Assembly: GCA_003045995.1 (NCBI GenBank)
Contig: PZPG01000010.1
Span: forward strand, 1 to 41,542
Reading direction: 5' to 3'
Length of the DNA stretch: 41,542 nt
DNA from: Bacteroidota bacterium
GTDB taxonomy: Bacteria; Bacteroidota; Rhodothermia; Balneolales; Balneolaceae
Part shown: piece after piece, positions 7,055 through 28,882 of the stretch
Layout: each line of letters opens with the position of its first letter
Position numbering within the stretch: the first letter of the stretch is position 1
Notes under the pieces: generated by a model
The model's input: only the letters and a program-made list of their open reading frames with translations
Databases searched by the model: none
What the model was told of the DNA's origin: nothing
Made by a program: the position numbers and the translations under genes

Positions 7055-8491
7055 CTACAAAAACGATTGACCTTTTAAATTATTATCACAGGAAAAGTAC
7101 TCGAGAATCGTAGCGGAAACATCGGAAAAAGTGTCACGAACACCGAGGGGTGACGGAGTGAAATCCGGAGCTTTTTGAAGGACAAAAAGTGGCACAAACT
7201 CTCTGGTGTGATCGGTGCTTTGATCGCCAGGGTCGTTACCATGATCTCCGGTGATGATGATTAGATCCTCATTTTTTAACTCTTTAAGGATGGCAGGGAT
7301 GGCATCGTCGATCTCCCTAAGGCACTCGTAGTATCCCTGCGGGTCTTGCCGATGCCCAAATAGCTGATCGGTATCGATGAGGTTGGCGAACACAAATACT
7401 CCTTTTTTTTCTACTCCTGCGCTTAAGGATTCTTTGGTTTCTGTGGCCTCTTTGGTTTCTGTGGACTCATTGGATTCTGTGATTTCCTGGTCGTCTGCCG
7501 GGAAAGATCGTTTTAGTGTTTTCAGGATCGCATTGAGTCCGTCGCGGTTACTCTTGGTTTTATGAGTTTCATCGAAGCCTTCTGATGCGAACAGATCCGC
7601 GACTTTCCCGATTGAGAGGGTACGTATTCCACAGCTGCGAAGTACACTCATGAGGTTGGGCTTCGGAGGGATGGATGAGTAATCTTTTCGGGAGGATGAG
7701 ATACGCTCATAGGATCCGGAACTGCCGGTAAAGGGTCGTGCAATCACACGCCCTACTTCGTGATCTCCGGTACATATCTCTTCCCGTGCAATACGGCACC
7801 ATTCATACAGTGTTTCAAGCGGGATTGTGTCGGTGTGGGCGGCGATCTGGAAAACACTGTCAGCTGATGTGTACACAATTGGTTTTCCGGTTCTGCGATG
7901 TTCGTCACCAAAGTCACGGATCACATCGGTGCCAGAGTAGGGTTTGTTGCAGAGTACACCTTCGACGCCGGTGCTTCGGCAAAAAAGATCGAGAATCTGA
8001 TTGGGGAATCCATCGGGATACGTGGGGAATGGCTTGGCAAGATGTAAGCCTGCGAGTTCCCAGTGTCCGGTTGTGGAATCTTTTCCGGCGGACACCTCTC
8101 TCATCATTCCGACAGATGCGCTAGGTGTGGTAGTTTCTCCTTGTGTGGTAGTTTCACCTTGTGTGGTAGTTACATCCTGTGTGGTAGTTACATCCTGTGT
8201 GGATGATTTGGTAGGCGCGAAAGGTGTGGCAGACGCTTCAGGCAAATTAGACTCGTGGCCGGGTAGCAGTTTGGCGAATTTTTTTTGGGCCTCCGGATCG
8301 AGGAGTGTGCCTAGTCCGAGCTGTGCAAAATGAATCAGTGGTTTAGCCCCCAATTCCAGCCCGCCCTCCAAAGCGCTTTTGAGCGTGTTTGCATCCGCAT
8401 CACCATAATGAAAAGCATCTTCCTGGGCTCCCACGCCAAGGCCGTCGATCACAATCAAAAATACGCGTTTCATCGCCTGTTTTCTTTTCAT
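7055..8491 (-). CDS. deoB: Phosphopentomutase DeoB with two repeat-rich insertions
   Basis: It converts ribose- or deoxyribose-1-phosphate to the 5-phosphate in nucleoside salvage. Alkaline-phosphatase-superfamily metal motifs are present: VFLIVIDGLGVG near the start, DTDQLFGHRQDPQGY, and TGDHGNDPGDQSTDHTRE near the end. The catalytic threonine loop is GKDSTTGHWELAG (Thr141 in this numbering). The protein has 478 residues, against roughly 390 for the family. The excess lies in two low-complexity inserts: residues about 92-125 (TTQDV/TTQGET units) just before the catalytic loop, and about 335-360 (ESTETKEATETKE). Both are encoded by 18-bp tandem repeats. An internal ATG at 8473 gives MKRVFLIV, closer to the usual DeoB start; the choice is open. 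The gene is 6 nt behind the GAF-domain gene. Confidence 0.9.
   Translation of the reverse strand: MKRKQAMKRVFLIVIDGLGVGAQEDAFHYGDADANTLKSALEGGLELGAKPLIHFAQLGLGTLLDPEAQKKFAKLLPGHESNLPEASATPFAPTKSSTQDVTTTQDVTTTQGETTTQGETTTPSASVGMMREVSAGKDSTTGHWELAGLHLAKPFPTYPDGFPNQILDLFCRSTGVEGVLCNKPYSGTDVIRDFGDEHRRTGKPIVYTSADSVFQIAAHTDTIPLETLYEWCRIAREEICTGDHEVGRVIARPFTGSSGSYERISSSRKDYSSIPPKPNLMSVLRSCGIRTLSIGKVADLFASEGFDETHKTKSNRDGLNAILKTLKRSFPADDQEITESNESTETKEATETKESLSAGVEKKGVFVFANLIDTDQLFGHRQDPQGYYECLREIDDAIPAILKELKNEDLIIITGDHGNDPGDQSTDHTREFVPLFVLQKAPDFTPSPLGVRDTFSDVSATILEYFSCDNNLKGQSFL
7431..7484 (-). repeat. 18-bp tandem repeat, second DeoB insert
   Basis: Three 18-bp units (7431-7448, 7449-7466, 7467-7484) encode six-residue E/T/K/S-rich units. 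The first two differ at a single base; the third is more diverged. Confidence 0.75.
8127..8198 (-). repeat. 18-bp tandem repeat, DeoB insert before the catalytic loop
   Basis: Four 18-bp units of the form GTGGTAGTTNCANCCTGT (plus strand) lie head to tail, with a degenerate fifth after 8198. The two right-hand units are identical, suggesting recent duplication. Because 18 is a multiple of three, copy number can change without breaking DeoB. Confidence 0.85.
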
Positions 8492-20475: not shown

Positions 20476-20925
20476 TCAGAGGGTCTCAAATAATGTAGAA
20501 TAGTTGATTCGTAATGTCCCTGCATGTCGCAATTCTTGTTGCACATCCGTAACGATCCCAAATTCCGATTCCTGATCCACCCTGAGCGATACGATTAATC
20601 TCGGCTCTTCCAGAAGTTTATCATACATGATGTTACGTATCGCTCCAATATCATCAATGAGAGCATCATCAATCTGTACCCGTGTATCGCCAACTCTGGA
20701 ATTAGCCAATTTTTCCGGACCAATATATACATAGCTAACCAGTCGCTTCTGTTCAATCTTTTCGATGTTTTCCGCTCGCGAATATTGAACCTGTACCTGC
20801 AACTCAACTTCCCGGAGAACGGTTGTCACCATAAAAAAGATGAGCAACATGAAAACGATGTCAGGCATTGCAGAGGTAGGAATCGCCTGGTTTGTTTTTG
20901 CTGATTTCTTTTTGAATTTACTCAT
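20476..20925 (-). CDS. exbD: ExbD/TolR-type biopolymer transport protein (second copy)
   Basis: The protein has 149 residues: short basic cytoplasmic start (MSKFKKKSAKTNQAIPTSAM), one membrane helix (IVFMLLIFFMVTTVL) with the ion-pathway Asp just before it (PDIVFML), then a periplasmic domain. With ExbB it forms the proton-driven motor that energises TonB- or Tol-type outer-membrane processes. It follows the first exbD by 22 nt and has a strong GGAGG ribosome site. The two ExbD copies differ in length and sequence, so they probably form a hetero-assembly or serve different partners. No tonB gene is in the window. Confidence 0.9.
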   Translation of the reverse strand: MSKFKKKSAKTNQAIPTSAMPDIVFMLLIFFMVTTVLREVELQVQVQYSRAENIEKIEQKRLVSYVYIGPEKLANSRVGDTRVQIDDALIDDIGAIRNIMYDKLLEEPRLIVSLRVDQESEFGIVTDVQQELRHAGTLRINYSTLFETL

Positions 20926-20947: not shown

Positions 20948-21484
20948 CTAATCCGGTTCAGCGATCGAAATCCGTTTGGGGAAAGCATTTTTAATCTCCT
21001 CATATTGTTCGCTTTCCTCATTGAGAGCATCGAATGAAACTCCAAATCGTGCCATGGATTCATTATTCCGGAGTTCAGCGTAAGCACCCATGACCTCATC
21101 CAGCATGTCGATGTAGATGTTATATGGGGTGCGACGATCTGTTTTGATCGATACAATAGCGTCATCGGGCGAATCGGACAGCTCCGGATCTGCCCCGTTA
21201 TTGTTCACAAACCGCACAATTTTATCCTTGACCTGTACCACTGCTGTGAGCTCACCATCCATGAGAACCCTGCCCTGAGCATCGACAAGAATATTCAGAA
21301 TATTTCTCTCACGGATGGGGGGTGGTTCAATGTCGTCAGGAATGGGTGGTAGCACAAGGCCAATCCCCGTATCCACATCGATGGTTGTCACAACGAGAAA
21401 GAAGATCAGCAACAAAAAAGCGATATCTGCAAGGGAAGAACCGTTGATTTCCGGTGTTTCCCGGTTTCGTTTCTTTTTAAGCAT
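20948..21484 (-). CDS. exbD: ExbD/TolR-type biopolymer transport protein (first copy)
   Basis: The protein has 178 residues. The basic N-terminus (MLKKKRNRETPEI) is followed by SSLADIAFLLLIFFLVVTTID, the single membrane helix with the conserved Asp of the ExbD/TolR proton path, then a longer periplasmic domain (VLPPIPDDIEPPPIRERN, VLMDGELTAVVQVKDKI) ending in an acidic tail. The gene begins 6 nt after the 88-residue membrane protein and belongs to the same operon. In Bacteroidota-type genomes paired, diverged exbD genes beside exbB are common. Confidence 0.92.
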   Translation of the reverse strand: MLKKKRNRETPEINGSSLADIAFLLLIFFLVVTTIDVDTGIGLVLPPIPDDIEPPPIRERNILNILVDAQGRVLMDGELTAVVQVKDKIVRFVNNNGADPELSDSPDDAIVSIKTDRRTPYNIYIDMLDEVMGAYAELRNNESMARFGVSFDALNEESEQYEEIKNAFPKRISIAEPD

Positions 21485-21797: not shown

Positions 21798-22499
21798 TTA
21801 CTCGTCGGTGCTTTTTACAATTTTCTTACCCTCTTTCATGAGGATGATAGAATCGATCAGAGCGATGGAGCTCTCTTCCATGTCTGCAATGATACGGTCG
21901 ATTTTGGAAACGCAGTAGTTGTAACCAACCTGAAGGATGATACCGGCCATCAAACCACCTGCCGTAGTAAGAAGAGCCACTTTAATCCCCTCGGCCACAA
22001 TGCTTGGAGAGATATCGGCTGCGGCTGCAATCGCATCAAACGCCTGGATCATACCAACCACGGTTCCAAGGAAGCCAAGCAAGGGAGCTACCGCGATAAA
22101 AAGAGCCAACCATACGAGACCACGCTCCAGAAAACTCATTTCGATAGACCCGTACGTGGTGATCGCCTTCTCAGCAGCATCTACTCCTTCATCGGCTCTC
22201 ATCAAACCGGCTTGAAAAACAGAAGCTACCGGGCCACGTGTGTTCGCACAGATCTCTTGGGCCGCTTCAATACCTCCATTATCGAGGGCTTCCTGTACCT
22301 CTTTGGTAAATTTTGCGGTGTTGATGTCTGCAAGGTTGAGTGTAATAACCCGCTCCAGAAAGATGGCAAGACCCAGAATCAGTGCCACGAGAACCGGCCA
22401 CATCCAGTTTCCACCTTGATTAAACTGTTCGACGATTACATTAAAAAAGCCGGCATCAGCTCCAGACTGTAGAAAAATGAGAGCTAAGGATGAAGTCAT
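21798..22499 (-). CDS. exbB: MotA/TolQ/ExbB proton-channel protein
   Basis: The protein has 233 residues and typical ExbB architecture: N-terminal helix (MWPVLVALILGLAIFLERVIT), a cytoplasmic loop, then two helices in the family-defining MotA_ExbB segment (RGLVWLALFIAVAPLLGFLGTVVGMIQAF and VAEGIKVALLTTAGGLMAGII). The C-terminus is a cytoplasmic helix. It is the pentameric channel part of the ExbB-ExbD motor. The start ATG at 22499 has GGAG 9 nt upstream, and a near-consensus promoter lies 50-80 nt upstream. It heads the operon exbB, small protein, exbD, exbD. Confidence 0.93.
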   Translation of the reverse strand: MTSSLALIFLQSGADAGFFNVIVEQFNQGGNWMWPVLVALILGLAIFLERVITLNLADINTAKFTKEVQEALDNGGIEAAQEICANTRGPVASVFQAGLMRADEGVDAAEKAITTYGSIEMSFLERGLVWLALFIAVAPLLGFLGTVVGMIQAFDAIAAAADISPSIVAEGIKVALLTTAGGLMAGIILQVGYNYCVSKIDRIIADMEESSIALIDSIILMKEGKKIVKSTDE

Positions 22500-22673: not shown

Positions 22674-25600
22674 TCAAAAGTTTGCCTGCACGGAAAATTT
22701 TGCAGTCTGAATAATTCGGTTCATCATTGTGGTGCGACCGTGAACCTGCAAAGTAAAGGTGAGCTGACCCCTTGTACGGTAACTGGAAGACGCATTCCAT
22801 CGAATTCTGGAGCCGCCGCCAAGCCCGTTGCTAACCTCATAGACCAGATGCGGATTCCCCTCATCCGAAAGATCTGTATGCTGAATTTCGATGCCAGCGC
22901 GGTTTTGCAATCGTTGAAAAAGGGAAACCTGGGTGTTTAGTTTGAGCATCCAAACGGTTGCCTTTAGCGCTTCTCCCGGAATACGGTTCCGGTTATCTGC
23001 CCACGAAATTACAAAATCCAACTTTGCTGAGCGATTGGGAATGAACTCTAATCCGTGCTGAAGCTCAGTAGAAACGATTTGAAAATTTCTGGTTGCGATC
23101 TCTTCGGAGTCAGACTCCGTCCGACCTCTCAACCACTGCCAATGCGTTCTCCAGCGCGATGAAATGCGTACGCCTCCTTCCCATTCGGCCTGTTCGCGAA
23201 ATCGCATCTCCAATCCTCCCGCACGACGGTTCACTGACCGGAGCGAACGATATTGAAAAGAACCCTCATGCGTCCGTTTTTCATTTTGCCAGTCGATTCG
23301 CTGAAGATGCAGGATCGATCCATTCAATGTTGTTTCATCATTGAGCAGAACCTCAGGGCGGAGTAAATACACGCTTTTCAAATCCTGCTCGGTGCTCACC
23401 TCATTGATGTCCAATGTGCCAGACCATAGGATTCGGTTTGATGGAGTACGATCTCGCCCAAAAAGTTTTTGGTATGATTGGAGCAGATCCATTTCCCCGG
23501 TGAATCGTACATGGAGGTCTGCGGTTGTGAACAATTCATCGGACGGCATGTACTGCAGAACGTACATTCCCTCATCCGGACTAGCCTCCGGGAAAAATTC
23601 GTCTAACTGCTGCAGTCCGTCTTCATTCAGATCCTCCCAGACATAAAATCCAACTTCCGGTCCCACCTCAATGAATCTTTCCTGATAGAGCGATTTTTGC
23701 CCTGTGTTGACTTCATAAAGAAGATCCGTTTCTAGTCCAAAAAGAGTTGTATATCGAGTAAAGGATCGAACGAGTATGGTATTTTTATTCAGGTTGGGTG
23801 TGTTGGATGTGGTGGGTGTGGTGGATGTGGTGGGTGTGGTGGTGTTTGGTGATTCTGCTTTTGGTGCGGCCTCGTCATCTGTGTTCATTTCGAACGTATT
23901 CATGGAAGCTTCAAATGACTCTGTAGCGGTTTGATTTTGGAGGTCCCTTCTTCGGAACTGGAAGCTGTTTTCTGAAGAAAATCTAGAGTTTGGACGAATT
24001 CTCATTGTTAGGGTTGATGTTCTGGCTTTGGATGAGGTTTGAAGCTTATTACCTATGGGCAGGCGCTGATTACGAAATGCGATGCCCGCTTCAACATCAT
24101 ACCAGGAGCCATTCATGGACAAACCAGGGTGGATTTCGTCGAAAGCGAGGCTCTCCGCCGAAAGGAGCCCCTCTTGCGATCGAATCGAGCGGTGCTCCAG
24201 CTCCCATCGGAAAAACGGCGAAAGCCCGAGTCGTCCGGCCCTTTGCCATATGGAATGCAGCCAATCGGGGCCACGGGAATCCCTTGTTCTGCCGTTTTCA
24301 TATGTGGCAGCACCGACCCCAAGCTCCTTTCGAATGCGGCCGGCCTGTCGAAACCAATCTCCGAACAACCCAAACTGCCTGTCATCCTGCCGCACCCACT
24401 CCGTGCGCACATCCATCTCAGGCCAGGCCGGCCCCATATGCCGAATCTCCGATTCGGCGCGGAGAGCCTCCGCCCCTGCCATCTGCAAATATCCCCCTCC
24501 TGCCGAAACAATCGTCTCACTCTCCAGTTCCACCTGCATCTCCAGCTCAAGCTCATCCCTTCGGGCACCCGACTCTGCCATCGACTGCCTCTCCATTCCC
24601 AAATTCCAATATCGCTCGTACTCTATTGGATTCTGTCTTCCAAACTGCCGAAATCCATCCGTCTGACCTCGGTACCGAAGATGTGCCGAAAGCGATCCTC
24701 TACCAACATCCAGATCCTCCACAACCCACTCATGGCGGATTGCCTGATCGGACAATGCTGTGCCGGTCGAAAACCTGTTCGTCTGCACCTGGCTCACAGC
24801 CCACTCCGAATAGGTTCGCACCTTTTCATGAAAGCGATACTCACTCGTCAGACTTACCATCTGATGGCTTTCCGGTGGCTTGATCTGAATCACAGGTTCA
24901 TAGCGCCCCTGGCCGAAACCGGTCCAGAGAAATACCGCCCCATTCTGGTTCCCCGACGAACGACGATAACTCCCTCTGCCTTCCCCCACGTCGGTAAACT
25001 GTACCCGATACAGGGTCTCCTCTAATCCACTTGCCGGCAGATAGATGGTGACAAGTTGGCCCGCCTCCAGGGTATCACGCCGAACATAAACAGGCCCGTC
25101 CGGCTGCTCACCCGGTTCCAATGGATCCGCACCGGATATGCGGAGTAACTCACCCGCCTCCAGCATCTGAAGCTCTGCCAACTGCTGGTCTGATAGCGAT
25201 GGATAGAACAACAGATTCTTGCCGTCTGCCTCGCGCACGTACGCTGCCCCAACCGAAAGCTTTCCATCCATCATCCTGTCTTCCCGGCCTTGCGCAGCAA
25301 TCAACGATCTGGAGTAGTCTCCGGTACGATACTCAAAATCAACTGAAATCCTATGATTCTCCGTAATCAGCCTTCGATGTGTAAACGTAATCTCCCCAAG
25401 CGAATAATCAATCATGTAATCGTGGTCCCGTCCTCTTGTGAGAAGCTCGCCGTCAAGAAATACCCTTTCTGATCCTGCAATCACCAATACCGGACGCTCT
25501 CCCGAAATTCCCTGAAGCCGATATGGTCCCTGAACCCCCTCCGTCCCGCGAAAATCAATCGAATGAAACGTCCCCCGAACCAGTGAGAAGGCAGACCGGA

Positions 25601-26657
25601 CCTCCCTGTTTTCCCGTCGAAACTCTCCCGAAGCGCCCTGTACTCGTCGCCGGATCGCTGCAAACTCTACATCTGCAATCTCAAGATCCACATCCCCCAT
25701 CTGTAAACGACTCTCCTCCGAGCGCATCTCAATAAAGATCCGATCGAACTCCCTCAGCGTCTGCGTAGTCCCATCCGGCTGAATCGGCGTGGAACGATCT
25801 GTCAACACTGCCGTTACCGATACACCTTCTGCAATCTCACCACTTAGGTTTAACCTCAATCCGCTCTCTAGCGAAAGATCCTGCCTGTTTCCAATGGTAA
25901 ACCCTCTGGACAAGGACCCGCTTTGAATTAGATTCGATCCGTCTAGATTCGGAGAAGTGCTGCCCCCTGTGCCCCAGCTGCTACCTGTGTCCCTACTGCC
26001 TTTTGCTCCCCCAATGCCCCCTGTTCCCCCACCGCTCTTTCTACCTCCATCATGCACGTCATCCCCTACAGAGTATGTTTCGTTTTCGTTTTGTATTGTG
26101 CGGGTTGATGGCGATGCTACATCGCCCTGCATATCTACATGTGCGGGCGGGAGTACGTATTGATAAAATGCAGGGATTTGCAGGATGGGTTTGTGGTATC
26201 GGATGGTGACTAGCCGGCTTTGTGAAAATCTGGCGGCGCTAACCCGAAAGTAGATCCGGCCAGCGGGTGCCGAGAATTTCCACTCTTCCGAGGGCAAAGG
26301 TTTATTTTCGTGAACAACTTGAATCTCATCATCCCTCAAAAAAAAGCTTACATATATGGTATCAGCAGGGGTCTTCAGGTCAAAAGTACGCTCGATGATT
26401 TCTGGTACATGTTGCGGAGCATGCACAGAATCCACGTCCACAGAATCCATGTCCTTAGAATTCACGTCCAAAGAGTCTAGAATCACTGTATTTGCAACCA
26501 CTGATTCCAATACCAAAGAATCCACATCTGCAGAATTAAAAAGAACTGAATTTGCAACCATTGCATGAACTTTAGCAGACACTCCAGCCACTGAGTTCTC
26601 GATCGAAGGGCGCATCTTCTCAACTGCCTGCACCGCATCCGGGGCAACCGTCTTCAC
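22674..26657 (-). CDS. Large outer-membrane barrel-like surface protein, function unknown
   Basis: The longest frame from a usual start codon begins at GTG 26657 and gives 1327 residues. The codons just upstream in frame (26711 to 26658) encode a textbook signal peptide, xRAVAIIHVVLLLLFAVA, but contain no ATG, GTG or TTG; the natural position would be the ATC at 26711-26709. The true start is therefore uncertain. After a D/S/V-rich repeat come a strand-rich region (RIYFRVSAARFSQSRLVTIRY), a Gly/Ser spacer, then motifs such as SLSRGFTIGNRQDLSLESG and GDVDLEIADVEFA, and hundreds of residues of alternating beta strands. It ends in FSVQANF, a terminal Phe as in barrels recognised by BAM. Similar large proteins occur in Balneolota/Ignavibacteria-type genomes (recalled, not checked). 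No catalytic motif seen. Confidence 0.7.
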   Translation of the reverse strand: MKTVAPDAVQAVEKMRPSIENSVAGVSAKVHAMVANSVLFNSADVDSLVLESVVANTVILDSLDVNSKDMDSVDVDSVHAPQHVPEIIERTFDLKTPADTIYVSFFLRDDEIQVVHENKPLPSEEWKFSAPAGRIYFRVSAARFSQSRLVTIRYHKPILQIPAFYQYVLPPAHVDMQGDVASPSTRTIQNENETYSVGDDVHDGGRKSGGGTGGIGGAKGSRDTGSSWGTGGSTSPNLDGSNLIQSGSLSRGFTIGNRQDLSLESGLRLNLSGEIAEGVSVTAVLTDRSTPIQPDGTTQTLREFDRIFIEMRSEESRLQMGDVDLEIADVEFAAIRRRVQGASGEFRRENREVRSAFSLVRGTFHSIDFRGTEGVQGPYRLQGISGERPVLVIAGSERVFLDGELLTRGRDHDYMIDYSLGEITFTHRRLITENHRISVDFEYRTGDYSRSLIAAQGREDRMMDGKLSVGAAYVREADGKNLLFYPSLSDQQLAELQMLEAGELLRISGADPLEPGEQPDGPVYVRRDTLEAGQLVTIYLPASGLEETLYRVQFTDVGEGRGSYRRSSGNQNGAVFLWTGFGQGRYEPVIQIKPPESHQMVSLTSEYRFHEKVRTYSEWAVSQVQTNRFSTGTALSDQAIRHEWVVEDLDVGRGSLSAHLRYRGQTDGFRQFGRQNPIEYERYWNLGMERQSMAESGARRDELELEMQVELESETIVSAGGGYLQMAGAEALRAESEIRHMGPAWPEMDVRTEWVRQDDRQFGLFGDWFRQAGRIRKELGVGAATYENGRTRDSRGPDWLHSIWQRAGRLGLSPFFRWELEHRSIRSQEGLLSAESLAFDEIHPGLSMNGSWYDVEAGIAFRNQRLPIGNKLQTSSKARTSTLTMRIRPNSRFSSENSFQFRRRDLQNQTATESFEASMNTFEMNTDDEAAPKAESPNTTTPTTSTTPTTSNTPNLNKNTILVRSFTRYTTLFGLETDLLYEVNTGQKSLYQERFIEVGPEVGFYVWEDLNEDGLQQLDEFFPEASPDEGMYVLQYMPSDELFTTADLHVRFTGEMDLLQSYQKLFGRDRTPSNRILWSGTLDINEVSTEQDLKSVYLLRPEVLLNDETTLNGSILHLQRIDWQNEKRTHEGSFQYRSLRSVNRRAGGLEMRFREQAEWEGGVRISSRWRTHWQWLRGRTESDSEEIATRNFQIVSTELQHGLEFIPNRSAKLDFVISWADNRNRIPGEALKATVWMLKLNTQVSLFQRLQNRAGIEIQHTDLSDEGNPHLVYEVSNGLGGGSRIRWNASSSYRTRGQLTFTLQVHGRTTMMNRIIQTAKFSVQANF
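23803..23838 (-). repeat. 18-bp tandem repeat in the barrel gene
   Basis: Two 18-bp units (23803-23820 and 23821-23838), differing at one base, encode a Thr/Pro/Ser linker (TTPTTS units). Diverged copies flank them on both sides. Confidence 0.7.
26425..26469 (-). repeat. 15-bp tandem repeat near the barrel protein N-terminus
   Basis: Three 15-bp units (26425-26439, 26440-26454, 26455-26469) encode DVDSV/DMDSV/DVNSK pentapeptides. More diverged copies continue toward 26530. Confidence 0.65.
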
Positions 26658-26766
26658 TGCAACCGCGAAAAGCAGAAGCAGGACAACATGTATGATAGCA
26701 ACAGCTCTGATGGGGGTCGGGATTGGGTTACTTGTTGGTTGTACGAATGGCCGTGATGGCTTCCTT

Positions 26767-26811
26767 AGTATCGTAGCTAAGTATCGTAGCTAAGTATCGT
26801 AGCTAAGTATC
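26767..26811 (-). repeat. 13-bp tandem repeat upstream of the barrel gene
   Basis: Three exact copies of GATACTTAGCTAC (minus strand, 26811 down to 26773) plus a partial copy (to 26767) lie between dsbD and the barrel gene. Because 13 is not a multiple of three, copy-number change shifts the reading frame between upstream start codons and the signal-peptide codons, and also alters promoter or leader spacing. Confidence 0.85.
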
Positions 26812-26842
26812 GTAACAACTATCCCATAAGAAAAGCAGTTTT

Positions 26843-28882
26843 TTACGGTTTGTTCCACTCTCGGTGACGATCGAGCCCCTGCTGGAGAAAAGCTTCGAAA
26901 TCGGTAGTTTTTGTGTACCCTATAAGCTGATCGAGAACCTGCCCGGTTTGCGGATCAACAATGGCGTACGTGGGGAGTGCAAGGGTTCCCGTAAGTTCGA
27001 ATTGAAAGGTTTGATTTTTTTCTGCATCCGCACCACCATCGGTATACAGTTTTACCTTTTCCATCTGAGCAAATAGCTCCTGTACTTTGGGATCCGGAAA
27101 TACGTTGGCTTCCATAGCCTTGCAGTTGGTACAAGTGTAACCTGTGAAATCGATGAATACGGGCTGATTATTCTCAATTGCGCTGGTTACTGAAGCATCA
27201 TAACTGGATGACCATGCTCCCTCGTTTGATTCCAGCGCCCCTCCTGTGCCTGCGTACCGTCCAAGAGATTGAATTAGGCTCACTTCGTTCACTTGTCTTG
27301 AAGGCAGGTAGGCATCCCAGAATCCAAGATTGGCTCCCATCAACCCGGGAAAAAGATAAAATGAGAAGAGGAAGAAGGGTATAGATAGCATAACCCGGCC
27401 GGCAGTAATTGAATCGGGGCGTTTTTCACCGTGGAGGCCGTACATTCCTAAAATGTAGAGACCTGCAAGGAAGAAGAAGGTGATCCATGCAGCGATACCG
27501 AGTGGTCTTGAGATAAAGCCCCAGCCAAAGATGATATCGGCATTGGCCAGGAATTTTATGGAGGCGGCTAAGATAATGAAGGCGAGCACACTTTTTACTG
27601 CATTCATCCATGACCCGCTTTTCGGAAGACGTTGGAGCCAGTTGGGGAACATGGCAAAAAGAACGAATGGACTAGACAGGGCGGCTGAGAATCCGATCAT
27701 CCCGATCATAGGGGTAAACCACTCTCCGGACGTTGTGGCTGCCAGAACTGCCCCGATGAATGGAGCTGTACATGAGAAGGAAACCGCACTCACCGTAAGT
27801 GCCATAAAGAGCGTGCCAATTGATCCGCCACTATCATTACTTTTTTTGTTGAGCCAGTTGGTGACCTGGTACGGCAGGCGGAGTTCGAACATGCCAAGCA
27901 TGCTCATGGCAAAGAGAATGAATATCAACCCGATGAATGTGTTTACATACGGGTTGGAGGCGAATTGACTTACTCCGGAAACCCCAAGAATGAGGGATAG
28001 AAGGCCGCCAAGCAAGGTGAAGATAAATACGATAGAAAGACCGAAAATGAGGGCTTGAATCCATGGGGACCCGTTGTTGCGATTGGCATCCGCCGAAAAA
28101 TAGGAGACGGTTAACGGTATAAGTGGGAACACACAAGGGGTCAGGATCGCAGCAAATCCGGCGAGTATGGCGAGCCACAAAAATGACCAGATGTTGTCGC
28201 TTGCGATATCGGAGCTACTGGTGAGTGTAAAGGGAGTATCGCGATCGGAACCGGAGGATGAGTCCAGACTGGATTCTGAGTCAGAATCGGAAGCCGAATC
28301 AGAGCCAGATTCTCCTGTTAAATCAGAAGAGTCTAGTGGCCCGAAAGATGCAAACAAAAGTGAGGGTTCGGGATCCCCCTGCAATCGTATTTCAGCGTCA
28401 ATGGTTTTGGTTTTCGGGGGTAGGCAGGATATGTCGTCGCAGACCTGATATAGGACATCCAGAACGATTTTCTGGTTTCCAGTCAGTTCCGGATGGAATG
28501 CAAGGGGTATTGTAAACAGAGCTGATTTCGCATGCCACCCTAACTCCGTTTGAAAATTTGGATCGAAGACGATGGTTGGCTCCGTTTCCTGAACGGCTCC
28601 GGCAAGAAGAAGATTGGTCCTGCCACTACTGAACTGAGTCGGATAAGGACCGTCTGCCGGATCGTTATTCACAGAGTAAAGATGCCACTCTCCCTCAATC
28701 GTTGCCTCCACCTGGATGGAAAAGATCTCTCCTGCTGCTACTTCTTCCGGCGCCTGCTTTATTTCGTAAGTGACCGGGTCCAGTAGCTGTGCCATAACGC
28801 CCATTGGCAAACACAACATGAACACAATGAAAAGCAGCAGCGAGATTCGATCCCCTTTCAGGTGGCTGGTACGGGTGACCAT
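26843..28882 (-). CDS. dsbD: Thiol:disulfide interchange protein DsbD
   Basis: It carries electrons from cytoplasmic thioredoxin across the membrane to periplasmic reductants. It has 679 residues. Signal peptide (SLLLFIVFMLCLPMGVMA), then an alpha domain with Cys pair VCDDISCLPPKTK. A Ser/Asp linker at about 185-220 follows, then the CcdA-like membrane domain with Cys in AILTPCVFPLIPLTVSYF and SFSCTAPFIG. The C-terminal thioredoxin-like gamma domain has the CTNC active site in DFTGYTCTNCKAMEANVF. All three Cys pairs are present. It starts 11 nt after rplI and probably shares its operon. The acidic Ser/Asp linker is longer than in E. coli DsbD, possibly a salt adaptation (inference). Confidence 0.93.
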   Translation of the reverse strand: MVTRTSHLKGDRISLLLFIVFMLCLPMGVMAQLLDPVTYEIKQAPEEVAAGEIFSIQVEATIEGEWHLYSVNNDPADGPYPTQFSSGRTNLLLAGAVQETEPTIVFDPNFQTELGWHAKSALFTIPLAFHPELTGNQKIVLDVLYQVCDDISCLPPKTKTIDAEIRLQGDPEPSLLFASFGPLDSSDLTGESGSDSASDSDSESSLDSSSGSDRDTPFTLTSSSDIASDNIWSFLWLAILAGFAAILTPCVFPLIPLTVSYFSADANRNNGSPWIQALIFGLSIVFIFTLLGGLLSLILGVSGVSQFASNPYVNTFIGLIFILFAMSMLGMFELRLPYQVTNWLNKKSNDSGGSIGTLFMALTVSAVSFSCTAPFIGAVLAATTSGEWFTPMIGMIGFSAALSSPFVLFAMFPNWLQRLPKSGSWMNAVKSVLAFIILAASIKFLANADIIFGWGFISRPLGIAAWITFFFLAGLYILGMYGLHGEKRPDSITAGRVMLSIPFFLFSFYLFPGLMGANLGFWDAYLPSRQVNEVSLIQSLGRYAGTGGALESNEGAWSSSYDASVTSAIENNQPVFIDFTGYTCTNCKAMEANVFPDPKVQELFAQMEKVKLYTDGGADAEKNQTFQFELTGTLALPTYAIVDPQTGQVLDQLIGYTKTTDFEAFLQQGLDRHREWNKP

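Follow-up and report, generated by a model that had tools for sequence, protein, structure and literature searches.

In a stretch of Balneolaceae DNA of 41,542 nucleotides (hereafter the window), located on contig C10 of a 2.37-Mb draft genome with 117 contigs, the gene for a large outer-membrane beta-barrel is the extreme case of a lineage-wide avoidance of ATG as start codon. The gene appears to be intact, and it is rather likely that it is translated together with its signal peptide from a conserved weak non-AUG site, which in this genome would be a near-cognate codon. On the minus strand the gene order is ribosomal protein L9, DsbD-like, barrel, ExbB, two ExbD and a thiamine-phosphate-kinase-like gene (Table 1).

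The preliminary description of the 5' end of this gene was right in every detail that was checked. Reading of the frame confirmed that signal-peptide codons (26711-26658 on the minus strand: ATC AGA GCT GTT GCT ATC ATA CAT GTT GTC CTG CTT CTG CTT TTC GCG GTT GCA) stand directly ahead of GTG 26657, the junction being IRAVAIIHVVLLLLFAVA followed by VKTVAPDAVQA, with cleavage predicted by eye after AVQA. The barrel frame comprises 1327 codons from this GTG, preceded by the 18 in-frame codons that encode IRAVAIIHVVLLLLFAVA. No ATG, GTG or TTG is present in frame between TAG 26792-26790 and GTG 26657, and the in-frame near-cognate codons are ATA 26771, ATC 26723, ATC 26711, ATC 26696, ATA 26693 and CTG 26681/26675. 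The ATC at 26711-26709 is indeed found where Met would be expected, one base away from ATG. Hydrophobicity as high as that of the 18 codons was reached by only 28 of 45,660 open stretches in the window (0.06%), and in orthologues the place equivalent to IRAVAIIHVVLLLLFAVA is occupied by a signal peptide; given this background and this correspondence, the hydrophobic stretch is not a product of chance.

Table 1. Features of the barrel locus (positions within the window)
Feature	Position	Strand	Remarks
SprA-N-like outer-membrane beta-barrel gene	22674..26711	-	1345 codons if read from ATC 26711, the near-cognate start considered most likely; open frame
ATC, most likely start codon (putative)	26709..26711	-	distance to hydrophobic core as in the CTG/TTG starts of relatives; no NTG available
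Signal peptide n-/h-region IRAVAIIHVVLLLLFAVA	26658..26711	-	homologous position in relatives
GTG, first canonical in-frame start codon	26655..26657	-	initiation there would lose the signal peptide
In-frame TAG closing the frame, within the repeat array	26790..26792	-	
13-bp tandem repeat, unit ACGATACTTAGCT	26767..26814	-	three exact copies and one partial; intergenic
ATG GGA TAG TTG	26816..26827	-	joins the signal peptide frame only with one repeat unit left
DsbD-like gene, upstream	26843..28882	-	Pfam DsbD_TM 7.5e-26; ends 131 bp before ATC 26711
Ribosomal protein L9 gene	28894..29343	-	precedes the barrel gene in 65 fetched loci
ExbB-like gene, downstream	21798..22499	-	
ExbD-like gene, downstream	20948..21484	-	
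Second ExbD-like gene	20476..20925	-	

Orthologues of the barrel were found in 72 of the 129 genomes of the order, and also in Ignavibacteria and Chlorobi. A Pfam search of the barrel returned no family, and its local match to SprA positions 604-653 (TIGR04189, E 9e-8) scored 29.7 bits, below the curated cut-off of 200. The AlphaFold2 model of its last 1091 residues (mean pLDDT 73) is a large beta-barrel, for which Foldseek reported many matching outer-membrane barrels, with SprA (6h3i_A) being the closest in size (query TM 0.38, rank 10). SprA/Sov, the type 9 secretion translocon (TIGR04189), is also a giant beta-barrel, and SprA genes of the same order likewise have no ATG starts; however, SprA/Sov has ~2400 aa, compared to ~1200-1345 aa for the present barrel, and a full-length SprA (2455 codons, 1551 bits) is encoded separately in the same genome. 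We named the barrel SprA-N-like and did not class it as SprA. A PDB sequence match to an SdrD repeat was short and of low complexity and was disregarded. The 1327-aa frame contains no stop and aligns with the relatives to its end, and most of the residues that are invariant in the family are retained. The branch leading to the window gene is long (1.68 changes per column), so that relaxed constraint on the barrel is possible. Two repeat-rich segments were also observed in its coding region: an insertion of ~65 low-complexity residues (26424-26474, surrounding 26400-26650), which follows the signal peptide, contains a 15-bp tandem repeat and is absent from relatives, and a 9-bp/18-bp tandem repeat in a Pro-Thr-rich stretch (23795-23851).

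For the comparison of start codons, 69 orthologous loci were fetched, the named relatives being Balneolaceae and other Balneolales, and start codons within 25 codons before the hydrophobic core were considered, using a home-made signal-peptide rule rather than SignalP. Among the 67 Balneolia loci with a recognizable signal peptide (window included), 17 have an ATG, 31 have only GTG/TTG, 18 have only CTG, and one, the window, has none of these; the number of 17 is an upper bound within the 25-codon reach because the rule favors ATG. At L060, TTG-ATG is located just beyond this reach. When the loci were grouped by hand into genera, 19 of 27 were without ATG. The window gene groups with L061, L069 and L072 (SH-aLRT 100), and no ATG was found ahead of the core in any of these three nearest relatives; the alignment of relatives thus shows to be false the possibility, considered in the preliminary description, that all relatives carry an ATG at a fixed distance. 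One of the three, L072 (from genome G019), is counted among the 18 CTG-only loci and has no usable NTG ahead of the core, since its only CTG lies inside the core.

Balneola (g17) and Gracilimonas (g4) have a CTG at corresponding positions, TTG is found throughout most of family f3, and GTG in g6. In Balneola and Gracilimonas, CTG has been retained despite differences of up to 0.65 between species at four-fold degenerate sites, and only three changes are needed to place the CTG label on the family tree. Beyond the order, 19 of 38 loci in Ignavibacteria/Chlorobi are without ATG, including two with CTG only. Just ahead of the CTG, the few differences seen within Balneola and within the closest Gracilimonas pair are synonymous when read in the barrel frame. 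This would not be expected if translation began at the CTG and hints at a start in another place; unless the pattern is due to chance, the frame would be entered a few codons farther upstream. No near-cognate codon is conserved in this upstream stretch. In four of the five aligned Gracilimonas loci (L079, L084, L086 and L090), the putative CTG start is preceded, at a distance of two codons, by ATG TAG or ATG TAA.

In contrast to the barrel, its neighbors at the same loci almost always start with ATG (ExbB 55/55, ExbD 52/52, L9 63/65). Signal-peptide-like ORFs, taken from 80-kb stretches of eight relatives and ~49 kb of the window's genome, had ATG in 85 of 98 cases, and most of the non-ATG ones look like mis-called frames. 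TonB-dependent receptors, which are also large outer-membrane barrels, have ATG in 28 of 29 cases, and the barrel differs from them with Fisher p values of 2e-11 by locus and 1e-7 by genus. On the other hand, a conserved weak non-AUG start seems to be common to the barrel, SprA and BamA. Within Balneolales, ATG was found in none of the 15 usable SprA loci and was missing from 15 of 19 BamA loci, and both genes mostly have GTG or TTG starts in Balneolia (SprA N-termini, L248-L265; BamA, L266-L284). The SprA gene of G010, another member of the Balneolaceae (L263), has a signal peptide preceded by no ATG, GTG, TTG or CTG, and its start is most plausibly ATT (ATT ATT TCG). Outside the order, 18 of 30 SprA loci are without ATG. 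DsbD is an exception to a reading that would confine the trait to barrels: the protein is not a barrel and not giant, yet in 12 of 34 loci the start codon closest to hand is one other than ATG. In several Balneolaceae, the expected start of the DsbD-like gene is GTG, TTG or no canonical codon, namely at L066, L067, L071, L077, L079, L080, L082, L084, L086, L088 and L090. LptD could not serve as a further translocon control, as no PF04453 match was found in these genomes.

Further examination of initiation signals revealed that none of the 67 barrel loci has a strong Shine-Dalgarno core, defined as AGGA, GGAG or GAGG between -20 and -5, compared to 96% for ExbB, 57% for ExbD and 46% for L9. A terminator-like hairpin with a T-run was observed ~25-67 nt upstream of the barrel start in most of f3 (L087, L093, L096-L098, L100, L103-L107 and L116) and in f5 (L115 and L118-L120); therefore, transcription reading through from the L9 operon may also be needed for the barrel in those genomes. 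A relaxed initiator tRNA was rejected as the cause, because the anticodon stem-loop of tRNA-fMet is an exact canonical match in the window's genome and five others, with no loss of its three G-C pairs. An Rfam search over 14 loci detected nothing at the start region; an IRE_II match elsewhere (E 0.045) was taken as chance.

Several other explanations were weighed against a conserved weak start. A sequencing or assembly error might conceal a real canonical start, or an indel in the upstream C run or a collapsed repeat that would join an upstream start to the frame. The genome is a draft of 117 contigs, no congener is available among the compared genomes to check one base, and a single base separates ATC from ATG. 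We nevertheless regard such an error as unlikely; the three nearest relatives are without ATG, as are 50 of the 67 orthologues, including isolates such as Gracilimonas and Balneola strains, and an error need not be invoked because relatives normally have no ATG at the start of this gene. The same distribution bears on the possibility that the gene was recently broken by a fixed mutation that removed its start, and that it is now decaying while producing a protein without signal peptide from GTG 26657, or no protein at all. Although the long branch and the low-complexity insertion after the signal peptide would fit such decay, the 1327-codon frame has neither stop nor frameshift and is aligned to its end, the invariant family residues are largely kept, and none of the relatives in its clade possesses an ATG that could have been lost, making a broken gene quite improbable. 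As the three closest relatives also have no ATG, its recent loss is unlikely, and the proposal that a point mutation had switched secretion off is not supported. A similarly low probability is given to entry from upstream by programmed frameshifting or reinitiation, with the near-cognate codons as bystanders. Such entry could account for the exclusively synonymous changes that precede the CTG in Balneola and one Gracilimonas pair, and for the ATG with an in-frame stop preceding the CTG in Gracilimonas; however, neither a slippery site nor an upstream reading frame is conserved across genera, many loci have in-frame stops directly upstream of the start region, and the terminator region of f3 carries indels that shift the upstream frame.

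Phase variation had also been proposed, in which slippage of the 13-bp repeat would, in part of the cells, bring TTG 26818 into frame with the signal peptide. The array resembles those of repeat-driven phase-variable surface genes, in that a surface-protein frame is preceded by a short tandem repeat whose unit length is not a multiple of three; here the repeat lies between the TTG and the signal peptide. The three exact copies and the partial one were verified, and frame arithmetic confirmed that the TTG following ATG GGA TAG comes into frame with the signal peptide once two units are removed. When 0 to 11 units were simulated, the frame was open only with one unit or zero and closed for 2 to 11 units, because three successive 13-bp units always present a TAG; therefore, a gain or loss of one unit by slippage cannot switch the frame on. 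Unlike in phase-variable surface genes, the frame is thus unable to cycle at two or more copies, and a single remaining unit is no longer a repeat. Moreover, the repeat is private to this locus: no second locus was found in the genome, which also rules it out as a dispersed element, and the intergenic regions of relatives do not contain it. Both the frame arithmetic and this absence contradict phase variation, which we consider very improbable.

Of the three options in the preliminary description, a rare non-canonical start such as ATC is therefore the best supported one, because ATG is avoided across the order and because L072 of G019 has no NTG ahead of the hydrophobic core and the SprA gene L263 of G010 has none either. 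According to the weak-start explanation, the barrel would be made with its signal peptide from a deliberately poor site that has neither AUG nor Shine-Dalgarno sequence, with UUG, GUG and, judging by position, CUG being kept in place of AUG across the family as well as in SprA and BamA of Balneolales. In the window's genome a near-cognate codon would initiate, the best candidate being AUC 26711, with AUA 26771 or another AUH as alternatives. We infer the start at ATC 26711 only tentatively, with a chance slightly short of even; it would yield an ordinary n-region and lies approximately where the CTG/TTG of relatives is located. ATA 26771, a distinctly weaker candidate, would yield a long n-region like that of L061, and the remaining probability is spread over the other codons. 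Weak initiation would then keep synthesis of the giant barrel low despite its position downstream of L9, with the DsbD gene between them, and this limited dose would be the reason for the poor site. On the other hand, AUC initiation without a Shine-Dalgarno sequence would be expected to be very poor, which counts against the weak-start explanation.

Conserved near-cognate starts that limit expression are likewise known for infC (IF3; AUU/AUA) and pcnB (AUU; Binns and Masters 2002, as cited in PMC13009471). In Staphylococcus aureus, infC has an AUA start, a conserved non-AUG codon that limits expression, and non-canonical starts give ~10% of the AUG yield, one of them up to 30% in rich medium (PMC13009471). 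The barrel shares two marks of the infC/pcnB type, namely no AUG, GUG or UUG at the required start and a weak start that is kept while AUG is used elsewhere. However, the S. aureus AUU/AUA genes have a strong extended Shine-Dalgarno sequence (PMC13009471), which the barrel does not. Furthermore, infC and pcnB encode regulators and enzymes, whereas here outer-membrane barrels are concerned, the trait extends over an order, and CUG is indicated by position. Since a reconstruction found only 2 switches from AUG to CUG among 61,358 ancestral AUG starts (PMC5622118), a CUG inherited through two genera would be unusual. Within the partial coverage of our literature search, no publication came up that describes weak starts as a trait of outer-membrane translocon genes in Balneolales, and nothing on point for CUG/CTG starts in Bacteroidota or for BamA with GTG.

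It is an even bet whether this can be generalized to the view that in Balneolales, and partly in Ignavibacteria, translocon-type barrels (SprA-like, SprA and BamA) are held on poor starts as a translational throttle, with AUG serving the other outer-membrane proteins of the same cells. The poor starts would include a stably inherited CUG in Balneola and Gracilimonas and, in some genomes, codons of the AUC/AUA/AUU type. If confirmed, cells would tune the dose of these barrels at the start codon. CUG and AUC starts are almost never called in bacterial annotation, and pipelines would place the start inside or after the signal peptide, hiding the export signal. The weak-start reading can be tested directly in cultured species (Gracilimonas and Balneola).

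Some additional features of the region were observed. No plasmid relatives of the region were found. A putative element, GTTGACCCT..CTTTAGCC, also given as GTTGACCCT-N-CTTTAGCCTT, is conserved just after the DsbD stop (L062, L070, L077, L079, L081 and others). In the five genomes searched, the GTTGACCCT element occurs once per genome and solely at the barrel locus, and by its spacing (TTG, ~20 bp, TAGCCTT) it looks like a Bacteroidota promoter. Elsewhere in the window, 84-bp and 18-bp tandem repeats are located at 875-1036 and 8125-8202.
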